Shown: positions 15,576 through 26,865 of the stretch, in pieces
Layout: every line of letters begins with the position of its first letter
Numbering within the stretch: position 1 is the first letter of the stretch
DNA from: Geothrix sp.
Lineage (GTDB): Bacteria > Acidobacteriota > Holophagae > Holophagales > Holophagaceae
Assembly (NCBI RefSeq): GCF_030219325.1
Contig: NZ_CP126625.1
Coordinates: forward strand, 3,336,857-3,400,856
Direction: 5' to 3'
DNA length: 64,000 nt
Made by a program: the position numbers and the translations under genes
Notes under the pieces: generated by a model
The model's database searches: none
Seen by the model: the letters and a program-made list of their open reading frames with translations, nothing else
Told to the model about the DNA's origin: nothing

Positions 15576-16433
15576 ATGACCCGGATGGTGCTGGCAGCCG
15601 CCCTGTGGATCCTGCCCGTCATGGCCGCTCCGCCCCCGTCCTTGTCGATCGCCCGACTCGCGACCCTGGAGGCGCGTATCGGGGGACGCCTCGGCGTGGC
15701 CGCGCTGGACACGGGCTCCGGCCGCCGCCTCGAGTACCGGAGCGCCGAGCGCTTCCCCCTGTGCAGCACCTTCAAGGTCCTGCTGGCCGGGGCGGTGCTG
15801 GCGCGGGTGGATTCGGGCCGGGAATCTCTGGACCGGCGCATTCCCTACAGCCAGACCGACCTGCTCGACCACTCCCCGGTCACGGCCACCCATGTGGCGG
15901 AGGGGGGCCTTCCGGTGGAGACGCTCTGCGCCGCGGCCGTCCAGGACAGCGACAATGCCGCGGCGAACCTGCTGCTCACCAGCCTCGGCGGACCGCGGGC
16001 CGTAACCGCCTTCGCCCGCACCCTGGGCGACGGCATGACGCGCCTGGATCGCAACGAGCCCAGCCTGAACGAGGCCACGCCCGGCGATGCCCGGGACACG
16101 ACCACGCCCGCCGCCATGGTGGGTGCCCTGAAGGCCCTGCTCCTCGCCCCCACCCTGTCGACCGCTTCCCGGGGGAAGCTCGAAGGCTGGATGGCCGCCT
16201 GCACCACCGGCAGGGCCAAGCTCCGGGCGGGCCTGCCCGCGGATTGGATCGTCGGGGACAAGACGGGATCGGGAGCGCACGGCACCATGAACGACATCGC
16301 CATCCTGCGGCCGCCCCACCGGGCGCCGATCCTCGTGGCCGTCTACGCCACGGGGTCGAAGGCCTCCTGGGGCGACCGGGAGGCGATGGTCGCCGAAGCC
16401 GGTCGGATCGTGGCGGGCGAGTTCAGGGACTGA
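15576..16433 (+). CDS. bla: class A beta-lactamase
   Basis: A 285-residue periplasmic serine hydrolase that opens beta-lactam rings. Signal peptide residues 1-17. All active-site motifs are present: STFK (nucleophile Ser), SDN, the omega-loop Glu in RNEPSLNEA, and KTG in GDKTGSGAHGT. GGAG lies before the ATG. No LysR-type regulator is next to it, so expression may be constitutive. It is intact and normal in length, so intrinsic beta-lactam resistance is expected. Confidence 0.95.
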   Translation: MTRMVLAAALWILPVMAAPPPSLSIARLATLEARIGGRLGVAALDTGSGRRLEYRSAERFPLCSTFKVLLAGAVLARVDSGRESLDRRIPYSQTDLLDHSPVTATHVAEGGLPVETLCAAAVQDSDNAAANLLLTSLGGPRAVTAFARTLGDGMTRLDRNEPSLNEATPGDARDTTTPAAMVGALKALLLAPTLSTASRGKLEGWMAACTTGRAKLRAGLPADWIVGDKTGSGAHGTMNDIAILRPPHRAPILVAVYATGSKASWGDREAMVAEAGRIVAGEFRD

Positions 16434-16597: not shown

Positions 16598-17062
16598 ATG
16601 TCCTTCACCGAGTCCAAGACCCACCAGAACCTCAAGGCTGCCTTCGCCGGCGAGAGCCAGGCGAACCGGCGCTACACCTGGATGGCCCAGGTCGCGGAGA
16701 AGGAGGGCCTGCCCGAGGTGGCCGCGCTCTTCAAGCACAGCGCCGATGGCGAGACCGGCCACGCCCTGAAGCACCTGATGTACCTGGCGGCCAAGGCCGG
16801 CGACCCCGCCACGGGCCTGCCCCTGGGCGATTCGCTCACCAACCTGAAATCCGCCGTCGCCGGCGAGACCTATGAATACACCGACATGTATCCGGAGTTC
16901 GCCCGGGTGGCCCGCGAGGAAGGCCACACCGAGATCGCCGCCTGGTTCGAGACCCTGGCCAAGGTGGAGCGCTTCCACGCCGGCCGCTTCCAGGACGCCC
17001 TGACCCGCCTGCAGTCCGGCGCCATCGCCGCCCCCGACGCCGACATCGCCAAGCACATCTGA
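16598..17062 (+). CDS. rubrerythrin-type diiron protein
   Basis: A 154-residue four-helix diiron protein that reduces hydrogen peroxide. Ligand motifs are [33 protein letters not shown] and ERFHAGRF. It ends without the C-terminal rubredoxin Cys4 domain of classical rubrerythrin, so an external electron donor is needed. AGGAG lies before the ATG. It opens a group with Dps and superoxide dismutase. Confidence 0.93.
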
Positions 17063-17069
17063 GGTGAGC

Positions 17070-17618
17070 ATGAACCTGGTTTTCGACCCCGCCACCGAGC
17101 TGGCCCGCTACGAGACGCGCCAGGCCCTCCTGGGCCGCCAGGCCGCCCTGCGGCTGGAACTGGCGGAGGGCATCACCTTCCAGCCCGAGACCGCCGAGAG
17201 TGTCGAGGACCAGGTGGTGGAGACCCTCTGGGCCGAAGGCCTGACGCTGGAAACCGCACCGGCCGAAGATGTCGTCGAGGCCCGCGCCTCCTTCGCCGTC
17301 CTGGCCCCGCGCCGCGAGCATGGCGGCCGCAGCGTCGTCGCCACCCTGTTCCTGGGTTTCCCGGACGCGGTCCGCGATGCGAAGCTGGCGGCCCTGCAGC
17401 GGTTCCCCGATCAGCTTCGGCTGGAGCTGAGTGACGGTTCCCTCGCCGCGCCCGCCGTGGATCGCGGCGCGGCCGGTCCCGAGGATCGCCTGCCCGCGGT
17501 GCTGGCCCTACGCTTCTTCCTTCCGGATGGCTGCCGCATCGCCGCCCTCGTTTCCAACCATGCCGTCGTTCCGGGTCGCTGGTCCGCGCCGCCGACCTGG
17601 GATGCCTGGCCTTCCTGA
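17070..17618 (+). CDS. unknown protein between rubrerythrin and Dps (DUF3501-like?)
   Basis: A 182-residue soluble protein. Its size, the strand pattern [15 protein letters not shown] and the position directly after rubrerythrin recall DUF3501 proteins, which often sit beside rubrerythrin. The sequence match by eye is weak, so the family name is a suggestion. The ATG at 17070 has GAGGTG upstream, 7 bases after the rubrerythrin stop. Confidence 0.6.
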
Positions 17619-17627
17619 GGAGCCTCC

Positions 17628-18098
17628 ATGAGCATCAACATCGGCATTCCCACCGAGGACCGCAAAGCCATTGCCGACGGCCTCTCCCGGCTGCTGGCCG
17701 ACAGCTACACCCTCTACCTCAAGACCCACAACTTCCACTGGAACGTGAAGGGCCCCATGTTCCAGACTCTGCACCTGCTCTTCGAGACCCAGTACACCGA
17801 GCTGGCCCTGGCCGTGGACCTGGTGGCCGAGCGCATCCGCGCCCTGGACTACCCCGCCCCCGGCACCTATGCGGAGTTCGCCAAGCTCTCCAGCATCCCC
17901 GAGCCCACGGGCGTGCCCAAGGCCACGGCCATGATCAAGGAACTGGTCGAGGGCCAGGAGGCCGTGGTCCGCACGGCCCGTTCCATCTTCCCCGTGGTGG
18001 ACAAGGTGGGCGACGAGCCCACCGCCGACCTGCTGACCCAGCGCATGCAGATCCACGAGAAGAACGCCTGGATGCTCCGGAGCCTGCTGGAGGAGTGA
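17628..18098 (+). CDS. dps: Dps family DNA-protecting ferritin
   Basis: A 156-residue ferritin-like protein. Ferroxidase motifs are THNFHWNVKGPMF and the following EtxYTELALAVDLVAERIRALD-type helix. Dps proteins form 12-mers that oxidise and store iron using peroxide, protecting DNA. GAGGAG lies before the ATG, 9 bases after the preceding stop, so it is in an operon with rubrerythrin. Confidence 0.94.
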   Translation: MSINIGIPTEDRKAIADGLSRLLADSYTLYLKTHNFHWNVKGPMFQTLHLLFETQYTELALAVDLVAERIRALDYPAPGTYAEFAKLSSIPEPTGVPKATAMIKELVEGQEAVVRTARSIFPVVDKVGDEPTADLLTQRMQIHEKNAWMLRSLLEE

Positions 18099-18196
18099 AC
18101 GTCACCCCTCCGGGACCGGGCAATCACTCATTTCTCCTATTTCCGACTTTTTTGGTAAACTACCGATCCGCGCCCCGCGCACCTGAGGAGATGACC

Positions 18197-18775
18197 ATGG
18201 CCTACACCGCCAAGTCCTACGATCACTTGAAGGGCGGCGCCCTGAAAGGGCTCAGCGACGCCCAGCTCGACCAGCACTTCACGCTGTACAAGGGCTACGT
18301 CACCAAGCTGAACGAGATCGAGGAGAAGCTGGCGACGGCCGACAACACCAAGCCCAACTACTCCTTCAACGACTTCAGCGAGCTGAAGCGCCGCGAGGCC
18401 GTGGCCTTCAACGGCTCCTTCCTGCACGAGCTCTACTTCGAGAACCTGGGTGCGGACAGCGATGTCAGCGCCGGCCTGAAGGCCGCCCTGGAGGCCGCCG
18501 GCGGCCAGGATAAGGTCATCGCCGACCTCAAGGCCACGGCCATGGGCGGCCCCGGCTGGGCCCTGCTCACCCGCAACCGCCGCGACGGCAAGCTGCACAC
18601 CTACTTCGTGGCCGAGCACCACCTGGGCCTGCCCATTGAGCAGGACCTGCTCGTGGTGCTGGACTCGTGGGAACACGCGTTCATGGTCGATTACGGCATC
18701 GCCCGCGCCAAGTACCTCGACACCTTCGTTGAGAACATCAAGTGGAGCGAAGTCAGCAAGCGCTTCGGGAAATAG
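18197..18775 (+). CDS. sodB: iron/manganese superoxide dismutase
   Basis: A 192-residue enzyme that converts superoxide to oxygen and peroxide. Metal ligands are seen as His in LDQHFTLYKGYV, His in NGSFLHELYFENL, and Asp/His in VLDSWEHAFMVDY. The ATG at 18197 is 6 bases after GAGGAG; an in-frame ATG two codons earlier has no room for the site. A TAAACT -10-like box is at 18156-18161. It completes the oxygen-defence group. Confidence 0.95.
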   Translation: MAYTAKSYDHLKGGALKGLSDAQLDQHFTLYKGYVTKLNEIEEKLATADNTKPNYSFNDFSELKRREAVAFNGSFLHELYFENLGADSDVSAGLKAALEAAGGQDKVIADLKATAMGGPGWALLTRNRRDGKLHTYFVAEHHLGLPIEQDLLVVLDSWEHAFMVDYGIARAKYLDTFVENIKWSEVSKRFGK

Positions 18776-19632: not shown

Positions 19633-19733
19633 GCCCGATCCACCGATCCGACATCCAATCCCCGGCTCCTGGCGTATCTCTCTGTGCCGCAGGTTTGGCG
19701 TGGCGCATCGGGCCTTGCCCGGGAGGAGGGCGC

Positions 19734-20684
19734 ATGGGATCGCAGATGGATCGGCTGACCTTCATGAAGGTCATGGGCATCGGCGGGGCGGTATTCGCCA
19801 CGGGGTTGCCGGGCTTCGCGGAAGCGCTCGGTTCCGCGGCCAAGGCGAAGGCTTCGGACTTCTACTTCGTGCAGCTCACGGACACCCACTGGGGCTTCGA
19901 GGGCGCCAAGGCCAATCCGGAGGCCAAGGGCACCCTGGGCAAGGCCATCGACGCGGTCAACGCCCTAGATCCCCAGCCGGATTTCGTCATCTTCACCGGC
20001 GACCTCACCCACATCACCGATGACCCGGCGGTGCGCCGCCAGCGCATGGCCGAGTTCAAGGCCCAGGCGAGCCGCCTGAAGGCCAGGCAGATCCGCTACC
20101 TGCCCGGGGAACACGACGCCTCGGGAGACCACGGCGAGGCCTTCCGCGAGGCCTTCGGAGCCACCCGCTACGCCTTCGCCCACAAGGGCATCCACTTCAT
20201 CGTCCTGGACAACGTGTCCCAGGAGGGCTCGATCCTCGGCGAAGAGCAGTTGAAGTGGTTCGCCGGTGAACTCGGCAAGACCCCCAAGAACGAGCCGCTG
20301 GTGATCTTCACGCACCGGCCCCTCTTCGACCTGTACCCCGACTGGGACTGGACCACCACCGATGGGCAGAAGGCCATCGACCTGCTGAAGGACCACGCCT
20401 TCGTCACCGTGTTCTACGGACACATCCACCAGGAGCACCACCACGCCACCGGCCACATCCAGCACCACTCGGCCACCTCGCTGATCTTCCCCCTGCCGGC
20501 CCCGGGGTCCACACCCAAGCGCGCCCCCATTCCCTGGGACCCGGCCCGCCCCTACCTGGGGCTGGGCTTCCGGCAGATCCATGCCCAACCGGCCCAGCTG
20601 AAGGCTGGCGAAGGCCAGGGGCTTCTGGTCCTTGCGGAGAAGGCCCTGGCGGATGCCCCGAAGGCCGTGGAGAAGCCCGCATGA
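19734..20684 (+). CDS. metallophosphoesterase, first gene of the Rieske operon
   Basis: A 316-residue calcineurin-like phosphoesterase. Metal motifs are QLTDTHWG, FTGDLTHIT, a GEHD variant of the usual GNHD, IFTHRPL and FYGHIHQEHHH. An N-terminal hydrophobic segment (VMGIGGAVFATGLPGF) suggests export or an anchor, but no twin-arginine is present. The ATG follows a strong GGGAGGAGGG site. The stop overlaps the Rieske gene by ATGA. Substrate unknown; cyclic nucleotides, phosphoproteins or phospholipid headgroups are options. Confidence 0.88.
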   Translation: MGSQMDRLTFMKVMGIGGAVFATGLPGFAEALGSAAKAKASDFYFVQLTDTHWGFEGAKANPEAKGTLGKAIDAVNALDPQPDFVIFTGDLTHITDDPAVRRQRMAEFKAQASRLKARQIRYLPGEHDASGDHGEAFREAFGATRYAFAHKGIHFIVLDNVSQEGSILGEEQLKWFAGELGKTPKNEPLVIFTHRPLFDLYPDWDWTTTDGQKAIDLLKDHAFVTVFYGHIHQEHHHATGHIQHHSATSLIFPLPAPGSTPKRAPIPWDPARPYLGLGFRQIHAQPAQLKAGEGQGLLVLAEKALADAPKAVEKPA

Positions 20685-21157
20685 CGCACGATCGACCCCT
20701 TGCACCGATGGCCCCGGATCCCTCCCGGCGGGCCTTCTGCGCCACGGCCTGCGCCCTGGCCATGGCGACGGCCCTCCGCGGAAGCACGCAGACGCCCGCC
20801 CCCGGAGAGCACCCGCCGGATCCCCACCCCGTGAAGCTCACGGAAGCGACCCGGGCCCAGCTGACTCCGGGGACGGTGCTGGACTACCGCAGGCTCGGCG
20901 CCTTCTACCTGGCTGCGGATGACCGGGGCGTGTTCGCCCTGACGGCCATCTGCACCCACCGCGGCTGCCTCGTGCTGTCAGAAGGCCCCACAGGCTTTGG
21001 CTGCCCCTGCCATGACAGCGCCTACAACCTCCAGGGCGAGGTCACCGAAGGCCCGGCCAAGCTCCCCCTCCGCCACCTGGCCGTGCAGGAGACCGAGCCT
21101 GGTGGCCGGCTGCAGGTGGACACCTCCACCACGGTGCCTCCGGAGCTCCGCCTTTGA
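20681..21157 (+). CDS. Tat-exported Rieske [2Fe-2S] protein
   Basis: A 158-residue protein with a twin-arginine signal (PSRRAFCATACALAMA). The Rieske cluster ligands are intact: CTHRGC and CPCHDSAY. It folds before export, as expected for a cluster protein. No cytochrome b partner is nearby, so it is not part of a bc complex; it could be a periplasmic redox sensor or electron carrier. It overlaps the phosphoesterase gene and is followed 62 bases later by a membrane-bound sigma factor. Confidence 0.9.
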   Translation: MTHDRPLAPMAPDPSRRAFCATACALAMATALRGSTQTPAPGEHPPDPHPVKLTEATRAQLTPGTVLDYRRLGAFYLAADDRGVFALTAICTHRGCLVLSEGPTGFGCPCHDSAYNLQGEVTEGPAKLPLRHLAVQETEPGGRLQVDTSTTVPPELRL

Positions 21158-21219
21158 CCTTTTCGGTGGCCGGGCAGGGACTGGCGGGACGGGCCCGGCG
21201 GGACCAGGATGAAACCACC

Positions 21220-22269
21220 ATGCCCACCCCGCTCCCCTCCACGCCGGCCGCGCCCCTCGGGGAGGATGATGCCTCGCTGCTCCAGCGCATCCGGGCCGGG
21301 GAGGAGGATGCCCTCCAGCAGCTGCACCGGCGCCATGCGCCCCTGGTGTTCCACCTGGCATGCCGGGCCCTCGACCGCGCGGCCGCGGAGGAGGTGGTGC
21401 AGGACACCTTCCTCTCCGTCTGGCGCAAGGCGGCCGATTTCGACCCGACCCGGGGCGCGGTCCGCACCTGGCTGCTGAGCATCGGGCACCACCGCATGCT
21501 GGATGAGCTGCGCGCCCGGTCCCGGAGGCCCCAGGCCGCAAGCGACCAACTGCTCGACCAGGCGGCCCTGTGGGCCGACGAGCCCCTTCCCGATGAGACC
21601 CTCTGGAAGGCCTACCAGCGGGACGCGGTGTCCGAGGCCCTGGCGGCCCTCCCGGAACCCCAGCGCGCCGCCCTCCGCCTGGCCTTCTTCGCCGACCTCA
21701 CCCACGAGGAGGTGGCCCGCGCGCTGAAGGTGCCCCTGGGCACCGCCAAAACGCGCATCCGCAGCGGCCTGCGGCAGCTGGAGCGCCACCTCGGCGGGCT
21801 GGTGGCCCTCCTGGCCGTGGCCCTGGCCGGCACGGGGTCCTGGCTCTACCACCGGCGGGCGCTGGAGGACGCGCAGATGCAGCGGGCAGTCCACCTCCTG
21901 GCGGACAGCCAGACGCGGGCCCTGCGCCTGGCCCCGGCTGGGGCCGCCGTCCCCGAGGCCGGCACCCACGCCACCTTCCGGAGCGCCCCCGGGGCCGGGA
22001 TCGCCGTGCTCACGCTGACCCATTTCCCGGCGCCACCCGAGGGTGCCCAGCACGTGCTTTGGGTTCAGGCTCAAGCGGGCTGGAAGCCCTGGGCGCTGCC
22101 GCCACCGGACCGCGCGGGCAAGGTTCTCCAGGTTCTGGAGGATCCCTGGCTGGCCCAGGCCTGGCCAGTCCGGCTCCGCATCACCGTGGAAACCCAGCCG
22201 ACCGGTCAGCCCTCGGGGCCCGTGGTGGTCGAATGGCGGGAACCCGACCCACCCTCCGCCACACCCTGA
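21220..22269 (+). CDS. ECF sigma factor fused to TM segment and RskA-like domain
   Basis: A 349-residue fusion. Residues about 26-100 are sigma region 2 (VFHLACRALDRAAAEEVVQD), about 135-190 are region 4 (LPEPQRAALRLAFFADLTHEEVARAL). A single membrane segment follows at about 191-210 (GGLVALLAVALAGTGSWLY). Residues 211-349 look like the periplasmic C-terminal domain of RskA-type anti-sigma factors. The zinc-binding inhibitory domain that normally binds sigma is absent, and no separate anti-sigma gene lies downstream. ATG 21220 with AGGA was preferred over an overlapping TTG at 21154. Confidence 0.82.
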   Translation: MPTPLPSTPAAPLGEDDASLLQRIRAGEEDALQQLHRRHAPLVFHLACRALDRAAAEEVVQDTFLSVWRKAADFDPTRGAVRTWLLSIGHHRMLDELRARSRRPQAASDQLLDQAALWADEPLPDETLWKAYQRDAVSEALAALPEPQRAALRLAFFADLTHEEVARALKVPLGTAKTRIRSGLRQLERHLGGLVALLAVALAGTGSWLYHRRALEDAQMQRAVHLLADSQTRALRLAPAGAAVPEAGTHATFRSAPGAGIAVLTLTHFPAPPEGAQHVLWVQAQAGWKPWALPPPDRAGKVLQVLEDPWLAQAWPVRLRITVETQPTGQPSGPVVVEWREPDPPSATP

Positions 22270-22658: not shown

Positions 22659-23699
22659 TTACCGCCCCTGGGCACTTCGCGAAGCCCTCAGCACGGCCCG
22701 GAAGACCTCCTCCACGCCCTGGGCATCGAGCCCCGATTCCCTGGCCCAGTCCCGCCGGGCCTGCAGCTGCGAGGCTTCCCGCTCGGGATCATGGATGGGG
22801 AGGTTCAGCTCGGCCTTGGCACGGCCCGCGCGGAGCACCAGTTCCGTGCGGCGGGCGAGCAGGGCCACCAGCTCCTGATCCAGCGCGTCGATGTGATCCC
22901 GGGCCTCCTGCAGAGCCGGCGACCGCGTGCCCAGGTCGGGGATGGAGAGCTGCTCGCCCCCCCCCGACTCGGCCGCCTCGGCCAGACTCCGGTGGATGGC
23001 CGACAGGGCCTCCAGCAATCCTTCCCGGGCGCCGGAGGCGAAGGGGTTCTCGTTCTGCAGGGCGGCGAAGAGATGCCCCGCGTCCTCCCGCACCGACTCG
23101 AGCGTCCGCGCGATGGCGTGGAAGGAGGGGGGCGTGAAGGGCAGCTCGGCGCCGGCACCCACGGCCAGCAGCCCCTTGGCGATGAAGAAGGTCAGCGCAT
23201 GGGTCGTGGCCATCACGCGGTCGTGGTCCTCGGGGCTCTGGCGCAGCACCTCGCAGCCCAGGCTGTGGAACAGGCTTTCGACACGCTGAGCGGCGGCCGG
23301 ATGGTGGGGCGAGGCGCAGAGCACCACGCGCAGGGGACGCTCGGCCCGGGCGAGGCTCACCGGTCCGAACAGCGGATGGGTGCCCGCATGGGGGATGGCC
23401 GGGCCCAGGTGCTCTTCGAGGAGGGCACAGGGCCCCACCTTCACGCTGCCCACGTCGAAGACGAGGTGGTCGGCCCTCAGGCGGGGCCGCAGGGCCCCGA
23501 TGAGGCCGCCCAGCGCCGGGATCGGCACCGCCAGCACCAGGGCCTCCTGGCCGTCCACCAGGTCATGGAAGCCGGCGACGCGGTGCTCCCCGGGCACCTC
23601 TGCGACGGGATCCCAGGCCCGATAGGCATGGCCGGCCTCGCGGAGGAGCGAGCCCAGCGCCCTCCCGAAGCGGCCATAGCCCAGGATGCCGATGCGCAT
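22659..23699 (-). CDS. tyrA: prephenate dehydrogenase fused to chorismate mutase
   Basis: A 346-residue bifunctional enzyme of tyrosine synthesis. Residues 1-250 are the dehydrogenase: Rossmann loop GILGYGRFGRALG and HPLFGPVSL with catalytic His. Residues about 258-340 are an AroQ-type chorismate mutase (IDALDQELVALLARRTELVL, then DPEREASQLQARRDWA). The order is dehydrogenase-mutase, the reverse of the E. coli T-protein. The two activities convert chorismate to hydroxyphenylpyruvate. Confidence 0.9.
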   Translation of the reverse strand: MRIGILGYGRFGRALGSLLREAGHAYRAWDPVAEVPGEHRVAGFHDLVDGQEALVLAVPIPALGGLIGALRPRLRADHLVFDVGSVKVGPCALLEEHLGPAIPHAGTHPLFGPVSLARAERPLRVVLCASPHHPAAAQRVESLFHSLGCEVLRQSPEDHDRVMATTHALTFFIAKGLLAVGAGAELPFTPPSFHAIARTLESVREDAGHLFAALQNENPFASGAREGLLEALSAIHRSLAEAAESGGGEQLSIPDLGTRSPALQEARDHIDALDQELVALLARRTELVLRAGRAKAELNLPIHDPEREASQLQARRDWARESGLDAQGVEEVFRAVLRASRSAQGR

Positions 23700-23726: not shown

Positions 23727-23957
23727 CTACCGCAGCAGGCCCTCGATGGCCGCCACGGTCGGCACGTGACCCTGGCTCTTCACCACGCCGTCCACCACGA
23801 GGCCCGGCGTCGTCATCACGCCCCGGGCCACGATGTCCGGGTACTCGGTGACCTTCACCAGCGTGAAGGTCGCACCCAGGTTCTTCGCGGCCTCCTCCGC
23901 CCGCTCCGCCAGCAGCTTGCACTTGGCACAGCCGGTGCCCAGGACTTCGATTCTCAT
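23727..23957 (-). CDS. small thioredoxin-like protein
   Basis: A 76-residue protein of the 'redox-active disulfide protein 2' type, with the active-site GTGCAKCKLL (CxxC) at residues 9-12 and the cis-Pro loop VMTTPGLVVDG. Such mini-thioredoxins often sit beside ArsP/DUF318 permeases, as here. It may reduce an arsenical or the permease cysteines (inference). AGGAG precedes the ATG; the permease gene ends 8 bases before it. Confidence 0.88.
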   Translation of the reverse strand: MRIEVLGTGCAKCKLLAERAEEAAKNLGATFTLVKVTEYPDIVARGVMTTPGLVVDGVVKSQGHVPTVAAIEGLLR

Positions 23958-23965
23958 GGCAGCTC

Positions 23966-25039
23966 CTACATCAGGATGTTGAACAGGTATCCCACCAGCA
24001 CGATCCCCAGGGTCACGATGCCGAGGAAGGTGGCCAGCAACGTGGGCTTCAGCACCTTCCGCAGGATGACGGTCTCGGGCAGGGACAGACCCGCCACCGC
24101 CATCATGAAGGCCAGTGCCGTGCCCAGGGCCGCGCCCTTGGCCAGCAGCACCTGCACGATGGGGATGATGCCCGCAGCGCTGGCGTAGAGCGGCACGCCG
24201 ATGAGCACCGCCAGGGGCACGCTCCACCAGGCAGACTTGCCCATGAACCGCGCCAGCAGCTCCGCCGGCACATAGCCGTGCAGGAAGGCGCCCACGGCGA
24301 TGCCCACCAGGACATAGAGCCACACCTTGCGCACGATGTCCTTGGTCGCCTGGAACGCCAGTTCCAGGCGCGCCACGAAACCCGTCGGAACCTCGGTCCC
24401 CACCGAGGCCTCGAAGGGGATCTCCATCACCCACGGCTCCAGATGCCGCTCCATGCGGAGCTTCCCGATGATCCAGCCCGAAAGGAAGGCGATGGCCACG
24501 CCGGTCACGGTGTAGAGCAGGGCGATGCGCCACCCGAACAGGCTCCACAGCAGGAACAGCGCCACCTCGTTCACCATGGGTGCCGAGACGAGGAAGCTGA
24601 AGGTCGCGCCCAGGGGCACGCCCACCCGCACGAAACCGATGAAGAGGGGCACGGCGGAGCAGGAGCAGAAGGGCGTGGCGATGCCCAGCAGCGAGGCCAG
24701 CAGGTTGCTCCAGGCGCCGGTGCGCTTCGCCAGCAGGTCGCGGGTGCGCTCGGGGCTGATGAAGGTCTGCACGAAGCTCACGCCCAGCACCACGAGCCCG
24801 AGCAGCAGCAGCACCTTCGGCCCGTCATAGGCGAAGAAGGCCACGGCCTCACCCAGGCGGCTGCCCACTTGCAGCCCAAGCGCGCGGAAGGCCAGCCAGT
24901 CCGCCAGGGGCTTCAGGCCGAGGTAGAGCGCGAACCAGGCCGGAAGGGCGGCCAGCAGCCACCCTCCGGACCTCCAGAAGCCATCGCCCTGGACGGGCGC
25001 CGGGGCGGCACAGGCGCAGGATTTCGATTCCACGGCCAT
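23966..25039 (-). CDS. arsP: ArsP-like permease (DUF318)
   Basis: A 357-residue membrane protein with the family signature LGIATPFCSCSAVPLFIGF and the SAPMVNEVALFLL block, in two hydrophobic halves. ArsP proteins export methylarsenite and aromatic arsenicals; DUF318 relatives have other substrates. Location between arsM and a thioredoxin-like gene favours the arsenical role. N-terminal cysteines (KSCACAAP) are extra. ATG 25039 follows GGAGG and overlaps the arsM end closely. Confidence 0.82.
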   Translation of the reverse strand: MAVESKSCACAAPAPVQGDGFWRSGGWLLAALPAWFALYLGLKPLADWLAFRALGLQVGSRLGEAVAFFAYDGPKVLLLLGLVVLGVSFVQTFISPERTRDLLAKRTGAWSNLLASLLGIATPFCSCSAVPLFIGFVRVGVPLGATFSFLVSAPMVNEVALFLLWSLFGWRIALLYTVTGVAIAFLSGWIIGKLRMERHLEPWVMEIPFEASVGTEVPTGFVARLELAFQATKDIVRKVWLYVLVGIAVGAFLHGYVPAELLARFMGKSAWWSVPLAVLIGVPLYASAAGIIPIVQVLLAKGAALGTALAFMMAVAGLSLPETVILRKVLKPTLLATFLGIVTLGIVLVGYLFNILM

Positions 25040-25043
25040 GGCC

Positions 25044-25970
25044 TCAGCCTCCGCAGCAGGTGGGCGCGCAGCCACAGGCCCGGGGGCTCTTGGTGGCTTC
25101 AAGCTGCAGGCTCAGCACGGCACCCGCCGCGGTCTCCAGTTCCTCAGGCCCCAGCTCTGGGTACCGCTGGCGGGCCGCTTCCATCAGCTCGGGCGAGAAC
25201 ATGTCCAGGCCGTAACGCCGCTCGCCCGCCACGGCCAGGCCGAGGAAGCCCGCCGCCTCGATGGCCTTGAGGTAGTCCGCCTTCAGCAGCGCCCCGGCCA
25301 CGCAGGCGCCGTAGATGTCCATGTCCTGACGGATGGCCTCGGGCAGGGGCCGTTCCAGCACCAGGTCGGAGACCATCAGCCGCCCGCCGGGCTTCAGCAC
25401 CCGGTAGGCTTCGCGGAAGGTGCGGGCCTTGTCCGTGCTGAGGTTCACCACGCAGTTCGAGATGATGACGTCCACGCTGGCATCCGCCAGGGGCAGGGCC
25501 TCGATGTCACCCAGCCGGAACTCGACGTTCGCGTAGCCGTGGGTGGCGGCCAGGGTGGTGGCGCGCTCGATCATCTGGGGCGTCATGTCCACGCCAATGA
25601 CGCGGCCCGTGGGTCCCACGCGCTTCGAGGCCAGAAAGGCGTCGAAGCCCGCGCCGGAACCCAGGTCCAGCACCGTTTCGCCGGGTTTCAGGGAGGCCAG
25701 GGCCACGGGATTGCCGCAGCCCAGGCCCAGGTTGGCACCCTCGGGTACGGCGGCGAGGTCCTGCACGCCGTAGCCCAGGCCCAGGCTGGCCGCACCCGGA
25801 TCGGAATCAGGGCCGCAACCGCAGGATGATGAGGAGGTCGAGCAGCAGCTTGGCTGCGCCTCGACCTGGGGGTCCGGGGGTATTCGCGCAGCGAGGGACC
25901 CCCGGGTGGAGTTGGTGACGAAGCCCGCGTAGCGTTCGCGGACAGCAGTTTTGATGGTCTGGGAATCCAT
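25044..25970 (-). CDS. arsM: arsenite methyltransferase
   Basis: A 308-residue SAM-dependent enzyme that methylates arsenite. The SAM motif is [25 protein letters not shown] follows. The As-binding cysteines are in [10 protein letters not shown] and GACVAGA, with more cysteines near the N-terminus (42, 43, 50, 52) and in the tail CGCAPTCC. Product methylarsenite is more toxic, so co-encoded ArsP-like export makes sense. ATG 25970 has AAAGGA upstream. Confidence 0.94.
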
Positions 25971-26038
25971 GGCAGATCCTTTCGAAGGTAGACGTTCCCC
26001 GGGACGCGGTGGCATCCAGTTCCCAGGAAAGTGGAAGG

Positions 26039-26374
26039 TCAGTCCCCGCCGCAGCAGGGTGAAGGGCTCGGCTCTGACGCGGTGCCACCGGAGCAGCAGT
26101 CCTGCCAGAGGTACTCGGTGAGGGCCCGCAGCACGCCGTAGTCGGCGCGGTAGCGCAGGGTCGTGCCTTCCCGGGCCACCAGGACCAGACCCGCCTCGGC
26201 GAGGGTGGCCAGGTGGTGGCTGAGGGTGGAGGCCGGGATGTCCAGGCGCGTCTGCAGCTCCCCGGCGGGCGTCCCCGCCTCGGGGCCCTGCACCACGCGG
26301 CGCAGGATGGACAGGCGGACCGGGTGCCCGAGGGCCTTCAGTCGCTCTGCCGCCTGCTCCACTTGCCCGGTCAT
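26039..26374 (-). CDS. arsR: ArsR regulator with C-terminal cysteine pairs
   Basis: A 111-residue winged-helix repressor with [17 protein letters not shown] and the recognition helix [17 protein letters not shown]. The canonical N-terminal CxC is missing. Cysteine pairs at C93-C94 and C107-C108 are at the C-terminus, as in Acidithiobacillus-type ArsR with As(III) sites there. GGGAGG precedes the ATG. It lies just before arsM and probably represses that part of the island. Confidence 0.9.
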
Positions 26375-26424
26375 GGGTGCCTCCCGACTTAATTCTAAAA
26401 TTATCGAAATAGAACGCAAGGCCT

Positions 26425-26446
26425 AATTTCGATTTTTTTCGAAATT
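26425..26446. promoter_or_regulatory. perfect palindrome, candidate ArsR operator
   Basis: Arms AATTTCGA (26425-26432) and TCGAAATT (26439-26446) are perfect, with six T between. A third half-site, ATCGAAAT, lies at 26403-26410. The stretch 26385-26450 is AT-rich between arsC and arsR, so this is a good operator for an internal arsR-arsM-arsP promoter. Confidence 0.65.
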
Positions 26447-26865
26447 TATGGAGTCCAGCGCCGATCGCGCCCCAAAGCCGCCAGGCGGCGGGCGATCTCA
26501 TCTCGGGCCGTGCGGAAACGGGCGCGCAGATCCTCGGGCCCGAGCTCCGGATCCTCGCTCGCCGGATCCGGGATGGGCCAATGCAGGCGCTCGGCCCGGC
26601 CCAGGAAAGCGGGGCAGACCTCCTCGGCACAGAGGGTGATGACCAAGTCCACGGTGGCGGGGTCGATGTCCGCCACGGATTTGGAGGCATGGGCCGACGC
26701 ATCGATGCCCACCTCGGCCAGGGCCTCGATGGCATACGGGTTCACGCGGCTGGGCCGGCTGCCGGCGCTCTGGATGCGGAAGCCCGGGAACCGCTGGCGG
26801 GCCAGGCCTTCGCCCAGCTGGGAGCGGGCGCTGTTGGCCACGCAGAGGAACAGGATGGATGGCAC
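26446..26865 (-). CDS. arsC: arsenate reductase (low-MW phosphatase family)
   Basis: A 139-residue enzyme that reduces arsenate to arsenite. The P-loop nucleophile motif [15 protein letters not shown] is intact; the second catalytic block is WPIPDPA. Length and cysteine pattern match the thioredoxin- or mycothiol/bacilliredoxin-coupled ArsC group related to low-MW tyrosine phosphatases. GTG start. It is followed by the operator and the second arsR. Confidence 0.92.

Follow-up and report, generated by a model that had tools for sequence, protein, structure and literature searches.

A membrane-tethered ECF sigma factor without an anti-sigma domain, encoded with a metallophosphoesterase and a Rieske protein in a predicted autoregulated operon of Geothrix

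The locus lies in a 64,000-nucleotide stretch of DNA, analysed as a whole and referred to here as the window, from a Geothrix genome that consists of a single contig of 3.73 Mb. Three genes on the forward strand (window positions 19734-22269) encode, in order, a metallophosphoesterase-fold protein (MPE), a Rieske protein and an ECF sigma factor (Table 1). The MPE and Rieske genes overlap by 4 nucleotides (ATGA) and the Rieske stop codon is followed after 62 nucleotides by the sigma start codon; the tight order described in an earlier, sequence-only reading of this DNA was thus confirmed, with exact coordinates. The same reading had noted the absence of a separate anti-sigma gene downstream of the sigma gene, and this also held, since the next gene (22659-23699) is on the opposite strand. 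The spacer before the sigma gene carries a conserved GGGxCTGGC block in addition to its ribosome-binding site. Just upstream of the three genes (16598-18775) are genes for a rubrerythrin, a Dps-like ferritin and an Fe/Mn superoxide dismutase, named by sequence inspection. This block, an oxidative-stress neighbourhood, keeps its position in most relatives, and at five loci (L032, L033, L034, L037 and L040) a short extra copy of the 3' end of the superoxide dismutase gene, 15-32 codons long, is present about 0.15 kb downstream of the gene. Further out, and judged by eye only, are a class A beta-lactamase-like frame with STFK, SDN and KTG motifs (15576-16433, forward strand) and a group resembling a metal/arsenic cluster (23727-26735, reverse strand), with permease, small CxxC thioredoxin-like and Cys-rich methyltransferase-like frames.

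Table 1. Features of the MPE-Rieske-sigma operon (window coordinates)
Feature	Coordinates	Strand	Basis or remark
Predicted SigK-like promoter, CATCC-N16-CGTAT	19652..19677	+	-10 element ends 56 nt before MPE start codon; conserved
MPE, metallophosphoesterase-fold, N-terminal signal, PGEHD replacing GNH[D/E]	19734..20684	+	316 aa; Pfam Metallophos 1.4e-13; alignment
Rieske [2Fe-2S] protein, Tat signal SRRAFC, complete cluster ligands	20681..21157	+	158 aa; Pfam Rieske 2.8e-10
Rieske-sigma spacer, 62 nt, AGGA ribosome-binding site	21158..21219	+	Length near constant
Membrane-tethered ECF sigma factor: sigma2, sigma4, TM helix, RskA_C	21220..22269	+	349 aa
Sigma core, region 2 (residues 35-103) to region 4 (residues 135-187)	21322..21780	+	Pfam
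TM helix (residues 191-209), continuing region 4 recognition helix, no ASD between	21790..21846	+	Hydropathy; AF2
Extracytoplasmic beta-sandwich (residues 210-341), RskA_C family	21847..22242	+	Pfam; AF2

The N-terminal part of the third protein is an ECF sigma factor with regions 2 and 4 only (Pfam Sigma70_r2, 4.8e-18; Sigma70_r4_2, 1.5e-11). It scored 93 bits against TIGR02937 (cut-off 42.9) and 137 bits against the SigK-like NCBIfam model PRK09646, below the 226 cut-off of that model. Hydropathy analysis revealed a single strong hydrophobic segment in all 16 orthologues, starting at residues 184-193. In an AF2 model of the full chain, which has low overall confidence (pTM 0.41), one helix (residues 173-228) extends from the recognition helix of region 4 across the membrane, with a beta sandwich after it. 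The outer domain of the window protein is a borderline match to RskA_C (PF10099), with 26.5 bits (8.5e-6) for the whole protein and 29.6 bits for the C-terminal part against a gathering cut-off of 29.4; the assignment is nevertheless sound, since 13 of the 16 orthologues match (E<0.01) and the protein from a sister genus (G420) reaches 41.0 bits. Pfam and hydropathy analysis therefore bear out the earlier description of a one-piece sigma factor with a membrane helix and an RskA-like outer domain, and the possibility that the C-terminal domain would match no anti-sigma family did not materialize. No sequence match of the outer domain to a solved RskA outer domain was found in the PDB, and Foldseek returned no match under E 0.001. 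The best fold matches were Cu,Zn-SOD-like beta sandwiches (Z about 8-9, rmsd 2.8, 96 aligned residues), a likeness that perhaps reflects just the common sandwich arrangement. RskA_C is not always part of an anti-sigma factor: a second match in the genome (L160, 1468-1947, reverse strand; 28.2 bits, below the cut-off) is a small frame on its own that resembles a lipoprotein and has no adjoining sigma factor.

The sigma chain had been described as lacking an inhibitory zinc domain. The inhibitory domain is indeed absent, but the loss is not specific to zinc: the anti-sigma domain (ASD) of canonical RskA is zinc-independent (PMC7406223), and here the whole ASD is missing, because the RskA_C match begins at residue 195, only 7-8 residues past the end of region 4 at residue 187. 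Neither an ASD nor zf-HC2 was matched anywhere in the chain, and in each of the 16 orthologues just a few residues separate region 4 from the TM segment. An ASD hidden in the linker or at the N terminus was rejected; the linker joining sigma2 to sigma4 has only about 30 residues and the stretch ahead of sigma2 has 34, with no family match. The sigma factor has one cysteine, C48, which is missing from some orthologues, and the two conserved cysteines of SigK are not present.

The MPE belongs to the metallophosphoesterase fold (PF00149), and in place of the canonical metal-ligand motif GNH[D/E] it has PGEHD, as does the MPE of every locus examined. It scored 41 bits against the cyclic-nucleotide phosphodiesterases CpdA/SpdA (curated cut-offs 225 and 400). 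Identification as CpdA/SpdA or as an anti-phage phosphoesterase was rejected, with scores far under the cut-offs, and profile comparison identified Rv0805 and purple acid phosphatase as weak, distant relatives. The Rieske protein contains the motifs CTHRGC and CPCH, corresponding to the CxH...CxxH pattern of a [2Fe-2S] cluster with disulfide cysteines. Its ligands (C91/H93 and C108/H111), the disulfide cysteines (C96/C110) and the Tat RR are invariant in 16 orthologues, in agreement with the sequence-only reading of a Tat-exported Rieske protein with intact cluster ligands. The export route of the MPE is less certain than that of the Rieske protein, because the Geothrix MPE signal, DR[L/F/I/K]xF versus RRxF in relatives, has lost the RR. 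Membership of the bc1 or b6f Rieske subunits was not indicated by profile scores (46 bits versus b6f cut-offs of 154-250; 38 versus 97 for TIGR01416).

A survey of relatives revealed that the three genes are conserved as a unit, and the possibility that the triad is unique to one genome was thereby dismissed. Full-length fused sigma factors were found in 15 other congeneric genomes, with 67-75% identity in 14 and 47% in Geothrix rubra (G001), and beyond the genus set in UBA706, the sister genus (G420) and another family (G316); named orthologue records of the genus come from Geothrix and other Holophagaceae. Among 47 congeneric genomes the triad was all-or-none, 16 containing all three orthologues and 31 containing none (thresholds E < 1e-150 for MPE and E < 1e-60 for Rieske). 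Gene order was the same in all 15, with a first overlap of 4 or 1 nucleotides and a spacer before the sigma gene of mostly 59-62 nucleotides. In G. rubra (locus L117) the triad occupies a different genomic site and lacks its usual neighbours. G. campi, G. oryzisoli and G. limicola are among the species with the operon. Chance co-location of the three genes was rejected on the basis of this second location and the all-or-none co-occurrence.

Alignment of the DNA upstream of the MPE gene revealed a strongly conserved block, aCATCCA ... GGCGTATCC, with a CATCC -35 element as in SigK promoters. Each of the 19 operons with a fused sigma factor, those of G. rubra, UBA706, G420 and G316 included, contained the pattern ATCC[A/G]-N15-[C/T]GTA[A/T] at 29-77 nucleotides ahead of the MPE start codon. 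Dinucleotide shuffles matched in a mean of 0.007 of the 19 operons (maximum 1), and among 65 MPE loci without a fused sigma factor, most of which have a two-gene sigma system, only one contained the pattern. Exact CATCC-N16-CGTAT is rare across 16 genomes, and all four other matches in G000 are intragenic or antisense. A larger regulon was rejected on this basis, with the qualification that the search used the exact pattern and variant sites may escape it. The tethered sigma factor thus appears, from this promoter analysis, to run mainly its own operon, with autoregulation and a very small regulon.

A profile scan for the MPE, using one genome per species, identified 80 loci in Holophagaceae and many Proteobacteria, with single cases in Myxococcota, Cyanobacteriota and other Acidobacteriota. 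In 59 of the 65 non-fused loci an ECF sigma factor is encoded within 3.5 kb of the MPE, mostly divergently, and in four of the six without one, the contig ends near the MPE on at least one side. Zinc-type anti-sigma factors are present at 56 of the 65 (zf-HC2 8e-9 in one tested), and a cupredoxin follows the MPE in nearly all of them (Cupredoxin_1 1e-14 and COX2 1e-7 in one tested). Three zinc anti-sigmas beside an MPE (L226, 2966-3730, reverse strand; L233, 6116-6937, forward strand; L067, 4467-5258, reverse strand) have in common an outer domain that contains the motif SSD[RQ]HTVKPWF and is unlike RskA_C. The electron carrier varies: at one locus (L065) a HiPIP replaces the cupredoxin, in Derxia lacustris both are present, and in genome G016 the genes after a second MPE copy encode a membrane protein and a cytochrome c. 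Twenty further Acidobacterial MPE loci gave a sigma factor in 19, a cupredoxin in 11 and a two-haem cytochrome c in four. Among the loci with fused sigma factors, the operon of G420 reads MPE-Rieske-DUF2231-like-fused sigma and that of G316 MPE-cupredoxin-fused sigma. Since these non-homologous carriers replace one another beside a conserved MPE, what is needed would be an electron carrier and not a Rieske protein as such, and electron transfer probably matters to the job of the MPE. A redox-sensitive metal site in the MPE is possible, at most, given the PGEHD motif and a remote similarity to purple acid phosphatase.

In 396 Acidobacteriota genomes every strong match to the outer domain of the fused sigma factors adjoins an MPE, and of four weak matches the three inspected were RskA-type frames beside ordinary sigma factors. 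In the sigma tree the fused sigma factors form one clade (support 99/93), nested among Acidobacterial sigma factors, four of which have an adjacent reading frame with RskA_C; the sigma factors of two-gene MPE loci lie at a great distance from this clade. The MPE tree, on the other hand, requires at least two changes of the fused label on well-supported branches; the G316 MPE falls within a clade of MPEs from two-gene, cupredoxin-type loci, where branches are long. Taken together, the two trees indicate that one kind of tethered sigma factor came to control two MPE lineages with different carriers, and it would have displaced the two-gene sigma/zinc-anti-sigma pair normal for the PGEHD MPE family.

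From the gene arrangement and sequence analyses, we propose that the operon probably encodes an autoregulated one-piece envelope sensor, in which a SigK-like ECF sigma factor, joined directly to an RskA-type TM helix and outer domain, has lost the inhibitory ASD and is released by cleavage to drive its own MPE-carrier operon. With no break between the recognition helix of region 4 and the membrane helix, the intact protein would be held at the membrane and kept off promoters. Site-1 cleavage, triggered when the outer domain receives an envelope signal, would be followed by site-2 (RseP/Rip-type) cleavage, and the freed sigma core would transcribe mainly its own operon from CATCC-N16-CGTAT, yielding more MPE, carrier and sigma factor; the MPE and the electron carrier would act together outside the cytoplasm. 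Release by intramembrane proteolysis is plausible: the genome encodes a site-2 protease homologue (173 bits), and RskA of Mycobacterium tuberculosis is a site-2 substrate (PMC7509140). It is also conceivable that the sigma factor might be active while tethered, or be inhibited by an unlinked protein. Activity without proteolysis, as a membrane-bound transcription factor tuned by its outer domain through dimerization or shielding, is improbable in our judgement. It draws on the lack of an ASD, which leaves no obvious inhibitor, and on the high activity of cysteine-less Nocardia SigK without RskA (PMC7509140), with which the single, non-invariant cysteine here is in line; the few residues between the region 4 helix and the TM helix should, however, hinder -35 binding in the holoenzyme.

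The roles of the MPE and the carrier are a separate matter. Strict co-occurrence and tight linkage of the triad, and the fact that the outer domain of the sigma factor shares the compartment of the Rieske protein, would fit a scheme in which the signal to that domain is the Rieske cluster, or else a phosphoester that the MPE processes, and the two proteins are sensor parts instead of outputs. We regard this as unlikely, for the type of carrier varies while the same kind of tethered sigma factor remains. Moreover, MPE and carrier sit behind the predicted promoter of the sigma factor itself, as outputs do, and in most bacteria the same two genes face a conventional sigma/anti-sigma pair whose outer domain is unrelated; on these grounds they are most likely first of all outputs, although signal feedback is also possible. 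The MPE of this operon may be an ordinary envelope phosphatase, for example one that recovers undecaprenyl phosphate in envelope stress, with the carrier incidental; this reading concerns the output and not the switch, and is compatible with a tethered sigma factor. UpsH of Bacillus subtilis, a metallophosphoesterase under control of the ECF factor SigM that releases undecaprenyl phosphate (PMC11898649), provides a precedent, and the weak similarity of the MPE to the Rv0805 and purple acid phosphatase profiles points the same way. Against it, a carrier gene adjoins the MPE at nearly every locus, an association that outlasts changes in the chemical type of carrier, and the GNH motif is altered to GEHD throughout; an ordinary phosphatase is a somewhat unlikely explanation. 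More speculatively, and with little likelihood in our estimation, the GEHD MPE family would be periplasmic enzymes that depend on redox state, the metal site being held at its working oxidation state by any of the carriers an operon may encode (Rieske, cupredoxin, cytochrome c or HiPIP), and the Holophagaceae tethered sigma factor would read the periplasmic redox state by cleavage of its ASD-less chain.

The proposed one-piece sensor has relatives among known systems. With SigK/RskA (ECF18/ECF19) it shares the SigK-like sigma core, the RskA_C outer domain and a -35 element of the CATCC type, as in the SigK consensus, and the fused sigma factors nest among Acidobacterial sigma factors, some of them paired with an adjacent RskA_C frame. 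It differs in being one chain and not two, and in having no ASD, other target genes and no conserved cysteine pair (conserved in 94% of ECF18 and 56% of ECF19 SigK proteins). No separate adjacent RskA with an N-terminal ASD is encoded in the operon; in a related Acidobacteriota locus (L187) a canonical RskA with an ASD adjoins the sigma gene. Pro-sigmaK of B. subtilis is also kept inactive at the membrane, has no separate anti-sigma factor and is freed through intramembrane cleavage by SpoIVFB, much as proposed here, but it is not an ECF factor, and its tether is N-terminal and short, with no sensory outer domain. Sigma and membrane-anchored regulator are likewise joined in one polypeptide in IutY (ECF243), ECF48, ECF52 (SCO4117), ECF53 and some ECF36 proteins, proteolytic activation having been shown for IutY and predicted for ECF48, ECF52 and ECF53 (PMC8999054). 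The C-terminally fused ECFs are described with an anti-sigma or zinc-finger domain, whereas here the sigma core abuts the TM helix. The divergent ECF sigma/zf-HC2 anti-sigma loci beside MPE-cupredoxin genes in Proteobacteria and Acidobacteriota have a homologous MPE, a periplasmic carrier and ECF control, but are two-gene systems of an unrelated ECF lineage with another promoter, and use cupredoxin or cytochrome c in place of Rieske.

Searches of the open-licence literature for an MPE with a Rieske protein, a sigma factor and an anti-sigma factor, or for an ECF sigma factor with an MPE and a cupredoxin, returned no paper, and a search for membrane-tethered sigma factors returned one match, which was unrelated. 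An ASD-less fused ECF chain, an autoregulated one-operon regulon and an MPE-carrier-ECF association were not found in that literature, the main ECF classification paper not being part of it. Fused ECF sigma factors are already known, while the ASD-less version and the MPE-electron-carrier cassette are apparently undescribed. If the proposal is correct, the tether itself would do the job of the ASD, a minimal version of ECF sigma signal transduction. The cassette, with its swapped carriers and ECF regulators in Proteobacteria, Acidobacteriota, Myxococcota and others, points to an uncharacterised redox function of the cell envelope.
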